Source: Gemmatimonadaceae bacterium (GTDB lineage: Bacteria; Gemmatimonadota; Gemmatimonadetes; Gemmatimonadales; Gemmatimonadaceae). Taken from it: a stretch of DNA of 33,141 nucleotides. Shown piece after piece: positions 3,763 to 30,788 of this stretch (its first letter is position 1; every line of letters begins with the position of its first letter). The notes below the pieces were generated by a model, which was not told the origin of the DNA, ran no database searches, and saw only the letters and a list, made by a program, of their open reading frames with translations. The stretch lies in assembly GCA_025358925.1 (NCBI GenBank), contig JANYHT010000027.1, positions 1 to 33,141 of the forward strand, in the 5' to 3' direction. A program made the translations under genes and the position numbers.

Positions 3763-4149
3763 TTAGACCTGCAACTGCGACGGCGAATGCACTCGCGAGA
3801 TAATCCGCCTCGCCGCTTCATCCCGAGACCGTGCAAATCCGTCGCTCGGGCATCCGCCAAATGGACGCCGACCGTGCGCATCGGTGGATGCACTGGATTG
3901 TGCGGGATGTCTGTGCGAGTTCGCGCGTGTGTGTGTACGACAATTCATGACGTCATGCCACCATATGAATTGGACACGCGCCGTAGCGCTTCGTGCGAGT
4001 CTCGATCAATGCGCAGCGTGTTACAATTTTTGGCAATTCGTCGGCGTCGCTTCGCCTGCACGGTGAATCCCACGTTGAAGCGCGTCAACAAGTCGACGAG
4101 CGGATCAATGCTGCTCAATTCGATGCGTGCGCGGATCTGCGCGGGGTAA
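3763..4149. other. no gene recognised (3763-4149)
   Basis: Open frames here are short and none gives a family I recognise. The stretch separates the response-regulator promoter region from the integron-integrase remnant. It may hold the eroded 5' end of that integrase gene, because the remnant starts abruptly at about 4150. Confidence 0.4.
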
Positions 4150-4711
4150 CTGGGCTGGATCGTCCGCTATATCCGATATCACGGCACGCGTCATCCGGCG
4201 GAATTTGGTGAGTCGGAGGTTGTTGCGTATCTCACGTATGTGGCCGACGAAGGGCGCGTCGCGCGATCCACGCAGATGCGGGCGGAGAGTGCGCTGATGA
4301 TGTTGTATCGGGATGTGCTCGCCATACAGATCGGCGACTCCTTGCGCTGCTGCTGTAGCGTCTTGAGATCCGCCTCCGTCGAGGAAAGGCGGGAAAGATC
4401 GGGTGACCGTATTACCTACATCGGCTCGTGACGGCCTGACTGCGCGACTTGCGCGCGTTCGGACATTACCCGCGCGCGATGGTTAAGCGCGTCTTGCCGC
4501 GCGGTGTGCTGGCGGTCCGCCTTGAGAAGCGCGCCACGTGCCTCACCCCCCGTCATTCGTTTGCGACGTGCTGGAAGACGGGTAGGATATCCGCACGCGG
4601 CAGGAGTTGACGGGCCACGGCGATGTAAGCACGACCATGATCCACACGGAGGTGTTGAACCGTGGGCGACATGGTGTGCGGAGTCCGGCCGACCGGCTTG
4701 CCAGAGGATAA
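4150..4711 (+). pseudogene. intI: integron integrase (IntI-type tyrosine recombinase) pseudogene
   Basis: Pieces of IntI occur in the right order but in different frames. The N-terminal SAM-like domain reads WIVRYIRYHGTRHPAEFGES, then ARSTQMRAESALMMLYRDVL. The central part is IRLRRGKAGKI, then VTVLPTSARDGLTARLARVR after a shift. The C-terminal part is KRATCLTPRHSFATC, then [20 protein letters not shown] and [16 protein letters not shown]. The last motif (VLNRGxxGVRSPxDRL) is typical of integron integrases. The nucleophilic Tyr of the family motif MIYTHVL is replaced by His (MIHTEVL), the segment between the two halves is largely deleted, and there are several stops. The gene runs in the same direction as the cassettes that follow, unlike most integrons where intI is divergent. 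Confidence 0.88.
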
Positions 4712-5952: not shown

Positions 5953-6371
5953 CCCGAGTCGTTGTCGATACGGGCCCCTTGGTGGCCCTGCTCAATCGGC
6001 GCGACCGTCACCATCTGTGGGTTCGTGAAGTGCTCGACACCGTCGAGCCCCCGATTTTTACGTGCGAGGCGGTTGTCTCCGAGGCATGTTTTCTGTTGGG
6101 CCGTCTCGCAAACGGGCAGGCTGCACTTTTGGAATTACTCGCGAACGATGTGGTGCGCATCGATTTCCGATTGCACACCGAGATCGACACGGTCCGAGGG
6201 CTGATGCGCAAATTCGCGTCGGTGCCGATGTCGCTCGCGGATGCGTGTCTCGTGCGGATGTCCGAACTCGATGCGCAGACCACGATCGTGACTATGGATG
6301 GCGACTTCCGTGCGTATCGGCGCAATCGGCGCCAGGTGATTCCGACCATCATGCCTGGCCGCGGCGGCTAA
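5949..6371 (+). CDS. vapC: VapC-type PIN-domain ribonuclease toxin
   Basis: A 140-residue PIN-domain protein starting at GTG and overlapping the antitoxin stop by four bases. The expected acidic residues are all visible: Asp7 in RVVVDTGPLVAL, Glu45 in VVSEACFLLG, Asp98 in SLADACLVRM and Asp117/119 in TMDGDFRAYRR. Length and spacing are normal for VapC, so it should be a working Mg2+-dependent RNase; family members cut tRNA or rRNA, target unknown here. The stop codon TAA (6369-6371) lies inside the first box of the attC at 6366, the standard layout of a cassette gene. This is the best-preserved toxin-antitoxin cassette in the window. Confidence 0.9.
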   Translation: MTRVVVDTGPLVALLNRRDRHHLWVREVLDTVEPPIFTCEAVVSEACFLLGRLANGQAALLELLANDVVRIDFRLHTEIDTVRGLMRKFASVPMSLADACLVRMSELDAQTTIVTMDGDFRAYRRNRRQVIPTIMPGRGG

Positions 6372-6453
6372 CAAAACATTGCAGTTAACAAGCGCGCTAC
6401 GGAGTGCTCGCTGCGCTCGCTTGTTTTGATTCGCTTGCAACTGAACGTTAGGC
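6366..6453 (+). repeat. integron attC recombination site (well preserved)
   Basis: It begins GGCTAAC (6366-6372) and ends GTTAGGC (6447-6453), 88 bases in all. Inside, AACAAGCG pairs with CGCTTGTT, and CAGTT pairs with AACTG near the ends with unpaired bases between, giving the imperfect hairpin typical of attC. The left part reads CTAACAAAACATTGCAGTT and the right part TTGCAACTGAACGTTAGGC; both recur at 9.0 and 30.1 kb. Confidence 0.88.
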
Positions 6454-29380: not shown

Positions 29381-29658
29381 ACGCGGGCGCGCCAGACCGG
29401 CGCTGGATCGCGTCTGGCTTCGCGTAGCCGCGGCGGCCACGCTCGCAGAAGCGGAGACGCATGCATGATGGCGGAGCAGGCAAACCGCGCCAAAACGTTC
29501 GTTCTGCGCGCCATGAGTCATAAGCTTGCGCCGTCAGCGGCAGTCGGAGCGCCCGGGCGAGTGCCGCATCATGCCCGTACAGATCGAAGTAGAAGAAGGG
29601 GACACCGTCATCGTCGGTTGCCACCGTGCCATAGAGGATGTAGACCGTCCGTCGACGT
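29334..29658 (-). other. unassigned minus-strand frame after the HicA-HicB gene
   Basis: The frame, open from 29681, reads RRTVYILYGTVATDDDGVPF, then FFYFDLYGHDAALARALRLP, which looks like a short natural protein, and becomes Arg-rich after about 29510. It starts within the hicAB end and overlaps the mgtA 3' end, so it may be a cassette remnant. No family is recognised. Confidence 0.3.
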
Positions 29659-30048
29659 CTATGCAAACGGGAGACGACCACGCGGTTCTGGAATCAAGCG
29701 GCCGAGTTCACGGGCCGTCGCAATCCATTCAGCGATGACGATTTCCGCCGCCGCGACGGCTTCGGCATACGTCGAGCCATCCGCCATGCAACCGTGGAGC
29801 TCCGGAACTTCGACGACGAATGCGGCGTGCGCATCGCTGACTTGGTACGCTTTGGCACGTCCGCCAACACGTGGTTGGAGGTTCACGATCTCGACAATAC
29901 CAGCGCGACTGAATATACGATGGCTGCCGCCGCGATGTCGGTCGTCGAACCCGAGCCGCCGCAGCAGGTCACACAACTCGTCGAAGCCGACGTTCCCGTC
30001 GGAGGCGCCGCGCAACACTTTCTGAAGGATCCATTCGTGACGCGTCAT
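29659..30048 (-). CDS. in-frame HicA-HicB fusion (toxin-antitoxin chimera)
   Basis: A 129-residue frame. Residues 1-70 are a HicA toxin: MTRHEWILQKVLRGASDGNV, FDELCDLLRRLGFDDRHRGG, SHRIFSRAGIVEIVNLQPRV and GRAKAYQV, with the catalytic His43 in GSHRIF. Residues 71-129 are the second part of a HicB antitoxin: AFVVEVPELHGCMADGSTYA, EAVAAAEIVIAEWIATAREL and GRLIPEPRGRLPFA. Missing are the last HicA residues and the first HicB strand, as if one deletion removed the end of hicA, the junction and the hicB start. HicA normally cleaves mRNA and HicB binds it; here both sit in one chain. It lies 38 bases after an attC end, so it is a cassette gene. Confidence 0.82.
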   Translation of the reverse strand: MTRHEWILQKVLRGASDGNVGFDELCDLLRRLGFDDRHRGGSHRIFSRAGIVEIVNLQPRVGGRAKAYQVSDAHAAFVVEVPELHGCMADGSTYAEAVAAAEIVIAEWIATARELGRLIPEPRGRLPFA

Positions 30049-30085: not shown

Positions 30086-30181
30086 AGCTAACGCTTGGGT
30101 TCAGTTGCAGCGCATCTCATACAGATGCGCGCGCAGCGCGCATTCAATACTGCGCTGTCAATCTGCAACCCATTGTTAGAC
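30086..30181 (-). repeat. integron attC recombination site, minus orientation
   Basis: In cassette direction it begins GTCTAAC (30181-30175) and ends CGTTAGCT (down to 30086). The left part reads GTCTAACAATGGGTTGCAGA and the right part TGCAACTGAACCCAAGCGTT. TTGCAG pairs with CTGCAA, and GCGCATCT pairs with AGATGCGC around a five-base loop. The signature matches the sites at 6366 and 9030. Confidence 0.85.
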
Positions 30182-30267: not shown

Positions 30268-30498
30268 TCAACTCGCGCGGGTGCGTGCCGGCCGCCACGA
30301 CATCGCGAGCCGACGACCGGTGCCGGCGCAGTCCCGTAAATACAGATTGATCAAACTCTGATACGGCAGCGCGGTTTCCTCCGCCAACGCCTTGAAGTAC
30401 GCGATGGTCGACGTGTCCAACCGAATCGTCACCGACTGCTTGAGCCGTTTCGCATAGGGGTTCTTCGTCGCCGCGGAAAAGTCGTAGTGGGCTTTCAT
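30268..30498 (-). CDS. brnA: BrnA/CopG-type antitoxin
   Basis: A 76-residue protein: MKAHYDFSAATKNPYAKRLK, QSVTIRLDTSTIAYFKALAE and ALPYQSLINLYLRDCAGTGR. This is the BrnA-like CopG antitoxin pattern (YDFS start, VTIRLD strand, then two helices of the ribbon-helix-helix). Its ATG overlaps the brnT stop by four bases, so the pair is coupled with the toxin first, as is usual for brnTA. It should neutralise BrnT and repress the operon. The attC follows 87 bases after the stop. Confidence 0.85.
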   Translation of the reverse strand: MKAHYDFSAATKNPYAKRLKQSVTIRLDTSTIAYFKALAEETALPYQSLINLYLRDCAGTGRRLAMSWRPARTRAS

Positions 30499-30788
30499 CG
30501 AGTGCGTCTCCGGGCATAAGTCTGACGTTCGCTGGGATCGGCTTTGCGGGCCGAGATGATGCTGATGACGTCGTCGAGCCCTTCGCAGTGCACGACGACC
30601 AACACGCGGAGCGCGGCGCTCAACCCCACAAGGACGAAGCGCGCTTCTTCTACGGAATGCTCCGGATCCGGCATGAACAGCGCTTCGTCGTCGTCGAACA
30701 CCGTCCGTGCTTCCTCGAACGACACGCCATGCTTGCGCTGATTCGTCGCGTCCTTCCTCGGGTCCCACTCGAATTCGGGCACGTCCAT
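30495..30788 (-). CDS. brnT: BrnT-type ribonuclease toxin (DUF497)
   Basis: A 97-residue protein: FEWDPRKDATNQRKHGVSFE, EARTVFDDDEALFMPDPEHS, VEEARFVLVGLSAALRVLVV and ISIISARKADPSERQTYARR. These are the BrnT/DUF497 motifs (EWDxxKxxxNxxKHGVSFEEA, RxLVVxxxE, IxIISARxAxxxERxxYxxR). BrnT is a small RNase that slows growth when free; the conserved residues appear intact, so the toxin should be active. A palindromic TGTACA site lies just before its start. Confidence 0.9.
   Translation of the reverse strand: MDVPEFEWDPRKDATNQRKHGVSFEEARTVFDDDEALFMPDPEHSVEEARFVLVGLSAALRVLVVVHCEGLDDVISIISARKADPSERQTYARRRTR

Follow-up and report, generated by a model that had tools for sequence, protein, structure and literature searches.

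The open reading frame at positions 29659 to 30048 (minus strand) of the window, i.e., the whole 33,141-nucleotide stretch of DNA that was analyzed from a Gemmatimonadaceae bacterium (GenBank assembly GCA_025358925.1, contig JANYHT010000027.1), joins a truncated hicA to a truncated hicB in a single chain and is probably the degraded remnant of a Class 1 hicAB cassette that was disarmed recently. The combination of a unique junction, lost core elements of both folds, a poor structure model compared with a good control, and broken hicA genes in three genomes of the same genus favors a remnant over a self-neutralized toxin. From these data we infer that the deletion is recent and that the product has no function; the fused chain would most likely be non-toxic and unable to fold into an active HicA ribonuclease.

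Composition of the fused frame

The frame extends from an ATG at 30048 to a stop codon at 29661-29659 and comprises 129 codons without an internal stop, which encode MTRHEWILQKVLRGASDGNVGFDELCDLLRRLGFDDRHRGGSHRIFSRAGIVEIVNLQPRVGGRAKAYQV directly followed by SDAHAAFVVEVPELHGCMADGSTYAEAVAAAEIVIAEWIATARELGRLIPEPRGRLPFA. Its start lines up with the starts of intact HicA proteins (MTRHSKLL..., MSRRERLL...), in agreement with an earlier note on this DNA, which had described an open frame with a normal HicA start. Alignment with intact HicA assigns residues 1 to 70 (29839 to 30048, minus strand), which contain the GGSHRIF motif and end with AKAYQV, to the toxin, while a Pfam match and alignment assign residues 71 to 129 (29662 to 29838, minus strand) to the antitoxin, including its natural C-terminus RGRLPFA (RGRLMFA in one relative). 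HicA hence precedes HicB, and the deletion junction, AKAYQV followed by SDAHAAF, is located at 29838/29839 of the minus strand, a place at which relatives have 76 to 118 nt. The earlier note was right that HicA up to AKAYQV is joined to HicB, but it placed the beginning of HicB too late, since homology starts five residues earlier (SDAHAAF versus SDEDEAF of the relatives).

The two halves are recognized to different degrees by profile searches. HicB_lk_antitox (PF15919) matches residues 72 to 122 with 29.3 bits, above the cut-off of 27, and HicA_toxin (PF07927) matches residues 23 to 52 with 20.4 bits, below the cut-off of 27 and covering only profile positions 2 to 31 of 58. NCBIfam provided no match to the fused 129-aa protein. 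Pfam detected no DNA-binding domain, and the protein ends with RGRLPFA like small HicBs. The candidate catalytic residue His43 in GGSHRIF is kept, as the earlier note had claimed, and this column is invariantly histidine in 22 relatives. The HicB inhibitory helix is likewise whole; HicB is known to neutralize HicA by packing a helix on the HicA sheet, which masks the histidine (PMC10865869, PMC11594946).

Extent and frame of the deletion

The distance from the V70 codon to the S71 codon is 76 to 118 nt in relatives and mostly 1 modulo 3, e.g., 103 nt in locus L031 (genome G269) and 100 nt in L036 (G069), which share with the fused frame the GSHR loop and the longer NLQPRxxG loop. Judged from these relatives, the loss probably amounted to about 100 bp and joined two different frames. 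It is therefore not strictly the in-frame deletion that had been proposed, because hicA and hicB of the relatives lie in different frames. A deletion of any length has a chance of about one in three of joining the frames, and the open frame alone is thus no evidence of function.

In intact relatives, the sequence ...AKPYQVRQVRxLILKYKLGxxD and a stop codon are followed (or overlapped) by MxxYEIIIYWSDEDEAFxAEVPELPGC.... From HicA, the fused frame lacks the helix and the tail, together about 24 residues, and from HicB the start and the first strand, about 12 to 13 residues. The conserved C-terminal helix of HicA, YQVRQVRxLILKYKL, which comprises residues 67 to 79 in the intact L031 homologue and is confident in its model, is cut after the first turn, i.e., after residue 70, and the HicB start codon is absent together with the first beta strand (YEIIxYW, with an invariant Y..YW). 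The stop-to-start region and the first HicB strand had already been reported as missing, but they do not represent the full extent of the loss, because the C-terminal helix of HicA is gone as well. Consequently, neither the complete dsRBD-like fold with its C-terminal helix nor the complete partial RNase H fold with its first strand is present in the respective half.

Structure models

The fusion was modeled, as the earlier note had suggested. AlphaFold2 yielded a pLDDT of 66.8 and a pTM of 0.49, with residues 70 to 79 around the junction below 50, in contrast to a mean pLDDT of 90 and a pTM of 0.79 for the intact L031 HicA that served as a control. The alignment of the fusion is thinner than that of the control and gapped at the junction, so that the pLDDT values are not strictly comparable and the low confidence of the fusion model is suggestive at most. 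This alignment (A9) has a real depth of 23 relatives; the window protein was also included in eight trimmed versions, solely to steer the aligner. Apart from the final V in the HicA rows, the alignment is correct; alignments A2, A5, A6, and A8, in which HicA tails were matched with HicB or vice versa, were discarded. In Foldseek searches, the control retrieved HicA structures (6g26, 1whz) and the fusion retrieved HicA and HicB, both weakly. A sequence search of solved structures with the fused protein gave no HicA match and three weak HicB-like matches. Residues 69 to 72, which stem from HicA, form a short strand beside residues 77 to 80 in the weak fusion model, at the place of the first HicB strand, and this predicted strand is the sole structural hint of a working HicB part.

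Relatives, uniqueness, and constraint

The junction search in other genomes that the earlier note had proposed was run and did not provide a second copy of AKAYQV followed by SDAHAAF in 84,980 species genomes, IMG/VR, 395 genomes of the phylum, plasmids, and phages. A pattern scan of the species genomes, with AKAYQVSD among the patterns, detected 15 relatives, none of them fused; IMG/VR and the plasmids contributed one relative each, both with separate genes, no relative was found in phages, and the fused locus itself was absent from all three collections. Within the phylum, 57 of the 395 genomes harbor a match, and residues 1 to 129 occur in one piece only in the genome under study. HicA and HicB are encoded by separate genes in all complete relatives examined. 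The occurrence of the same fusion in several genomes, which would mark a fused toxin-antitoxin family under selection, was not encountered in the collections searched. Three genomes of the phylum (G149, G085, and G250) were considered as carriers of one-frame hicA-hicB fusions and rejected, as their hicA either ends at a stop codon behind VRR or is frameshifted. In an Albidovulum metagenome-assembled genome, the open frame of a frameshifted hicA continues into an intact hicB (L016, 3001-3468), and mechanical ORF calling reported this locus as a 155-aa fusion.

Both retained halves resemble ordinary proteins under constraint. In a leave-one-out comparison with 28 HicA and 39 HicB sequences, 1 of 25 conserved columns is broken in the HicA part and 1 of 24 in the HicB part; intact relatives break on average 4% and 6%, respectively, and the fused protein is no worse. 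The two halves contain 5 and 4 residues, respectively, that occur in no relative, which is no excess; one of them is found in ELHGC, which replaces ELPGC or ELAGC. The pN of the fused frame to its relatives is ordinary, but the pairwise synonymous differences are saturated (pS of 0.56 to 0.91), and a branch-specific dN/dS ratio is for this reason unobtainable. The absence of an excess of broken columns or unseen residues provides no sign of long neutral decay, and the interpretation as a remnant accordingly requires a recent event. On this sequence basis, either the deletion would be recent or the chain would still be constrained or tolerated. The earlier note had named a unique junction under relaxed selection as one observation that would refute its proposal; uniqueness was indeed found, but the retained halves show no detectable relaxation.

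Integron setting

An attC site (30086 to 30181, minus strand; R'' GTCTAAC, R' GTTAGCT; cassette boundary between 30092 and 30091) is located directly upstream of the fused frame on the same strand. It has a DNA hairpin z of -4, resembles the repeated sites in arrays of the same genome (contig C49) and of other genomes of the genus, and scores 83 bits with a covariance model that was built from 14 such sites, itself among them; further sites were found on several contigs of the genome. Beyond this attC and in the same orientation as the fusion are the genes of a BrnT toxin (30495 to 30788, minus strand; PF04365, 90.7 bits) and a BrnA antitoxin (30268 to 30498, minus strand; PF14384, 36.1 bits), and the order BrnTA, attC, hicAB is as expected for cassettes. 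The BrnT/BrnA pair (30268-30788) is seemingly complete and occupies a cassette position ahead of the attC. In genome G012 of the same genus, an attC directly follows hicB of a hicAB pair, which indicates that hicAB in this genus is carried as an integron cassette; hicAB has also been reported as an integron cassette in Treponema denticola (PMC4909258).

No attC was found downstream of the fused stop codon, although the cassette's own site would be expected there. Instead, a C-terminal remnant of an L,D-transpeptidase-like gene (29409 to 29657, minus strand) abuts the fused stop without a spacer. This fragment was recognized by weak matches to the ends of long open frames in relatives, one of which reads as a transpeptidase with an SHGCIRL motif (identified by eye), and its position suggests a second rearrangement at the locus. 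Together, the missing downstream attC and the abutting remnant make this hicAB copy look stranded.

The genome encodes a complete integron integrase near a contig end (C23:30352-31296; TIGR02249, 425 bits, above the cut-off), and a second integrase match is present in two pieces (C7:4100-4835); loci L026-L028, L065, and L066 of this genome (G000) correspond to these matches. In the window, a decayed integron integrase with in-frame stops (4105-4699, plus strand; TIGR02249 fragments) is followed after about 1.7 kb by an attC of 49 bits (6366-6453, plus strand), and the two represent a dead integron platform on the same contig. Closely related attC sites, each about 90 to 110 nt long, form arrays with a spacing of about 0.5 to 1.8 kb and putative cassette genes in between; such arrays were observed in this genome (L072, G000:C49) and in G007 (L074, C213).

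Loss of hicA in the genus

All three genomes of the same genus that carry this hicB contain a broken hicA next to a complete hicB: hicA has a premature TAG in G012 (L067, 875-1356), has lost its 5' end in G013 (L068, 2458-2915), and is reduced to its last helix in G006 (L020, 1486-1701). Frameshifted or cut hicA genes beside hicB were also found in G085, G250, G149, and the Albidovulum genome, bearing in mind that draft assemblies carry errors. Toxin loss with the antitoxin kept is the common fate, and the window represents a variant in which both genes are damaged.

Interpretation and alternatives

Most likely, a Class 1 hicAB module first resided in a gene cassette of the integron type. One deletion, roughly 100 bp long, would then have removed the 3' end of hicA, including the last helix and the stop codon, as well as the 5' end of hicB with its first strand, thereby joining the two frames by chance. 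The remnant would persist because losing the toxin does no harm or brings a slight advantage, and the lack of further damage so far would reflect a recent event. The earlier note had offered a harmless remnant and a self-neutralized toxin as two possibilities; the former is favored here, while the unique junction, the cut folds, and the poor model weigh against the latter. Some observations count against a remnant, namely the intact His43 and HicB inhibitory helix, the conserved columns without excess breakage, and the fact that hicB is usually kept whole in the genus, whereas here it is damaged too.

The most serious, albeit unlikely, alternative is that the chain is no longer toxic yet continues to work as an antitoxin-like HicB that is kept for neutralizing related HicA toxins, with YQV replacing the lost first strand. 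The conserved HicB columns, the whole inhibitory helix, the predicted pairing of residues 69 to 72 with 77 to 80, and the survival of hicB beyond hicA in three genomes of the genus are consistent with this idea; however, the first strand has gone together with its invariant Y and W, the pLDDT at the junction is below 50, and the same genome yielded no intact HicA of this family that could serve as a target. It is quite improbable that the chain is a toxin whose HicA part folds but is kept inactive in cis by its own HicB part and could be released by a trigger, as in CapRel-type fused systems. Such a protein would have both His43 and the helix that masks it in known complexes, its frame is open with a normal start, and families of fused HicAB and HicBA exist, but those published fusions keep complete domains, whereas here the C-terminal helix of HicA is gone, no linker separates the domains, the model lacks a confident fold, and the searches gave no further example. 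Equally improbable is an assembly artifact in which the genome contains two normal genes and the contig has lost about 100 bp: the assembly is a draft of 72 contigs and the junction is unique, but at the breakpoints the DNA of the relatives is free of long direct repeats that an assembler could collapse, and further hicA genes in the genus are disrupted differently.

As a disarmed remnant, the locus offers a snapshot of how a toxin-antitoxin cassette loses its activity, in that one deletion breaks both toxin and antitoxin and leaves an open frame, and it adds to the pattern of hicA loss and hicB retention in the genus. An annotation pipeline would call such a frame an intact fusion protein. 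The core secondary structure of lone "fused toxin-antitoxin" proteins should therefore be checked before such proteins are treated as a class.

Comparison with known HicAB systems

Class 1 hicAB modules have hicA first and encode a small HicB of 67 to 97 aa without a DNA-binding domain (Gerdes 2024, PMC10865869). The fused frame resembles them in gene order, in sizes, and in the sequence of both parts, and its nearest relatives are of the Class 1 kind, but Class 1 consists of two genes, whereas here one chain remains after the loss of about 100 bp across the gene border. There is only a slim chance that the locus encodes a minimal one-chain HicA-HicB that derives from Class 1 and is functional; the HicA tail would then replace the first HicB strand and the HicB helix would replace the lost HicA helix, so that a single deletion would have created a cis-inhibited toxin or a dominant antitoxin.

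The hicAB cassettes of the chromosomal integron of Treponema denticola (PMC4909258) are similar to this locus in that hicAB is located next to attC, but here the attC is upstream, an own downstream attC is absent, and the genes are damaged. Fused HicA-HicB proteins with whole domains have already been described as Classes 11 to 13 (Gerdes 2024, PMC10865869), whose defining features the fused frame lacks. It shares with Class 11 an N-terminal HicA and a C-terminal HicB in a single chain, but Class 11 proteins contain a complete HicA, a complete HicB, and a C-terminal HTH or RHH domain, whereas here both domains are cut and the DNA-binding domain is absent. With Class 12 (HicB-HicA), whose domains fit closely onto stand-alone HicA and HicB when superposed (Gerdes 2024, PMC10865869), it has in common that a small HicB without a DNA-binding domain is fused to HicA, but the domain order is reversed, with HicA first in the fused frame.
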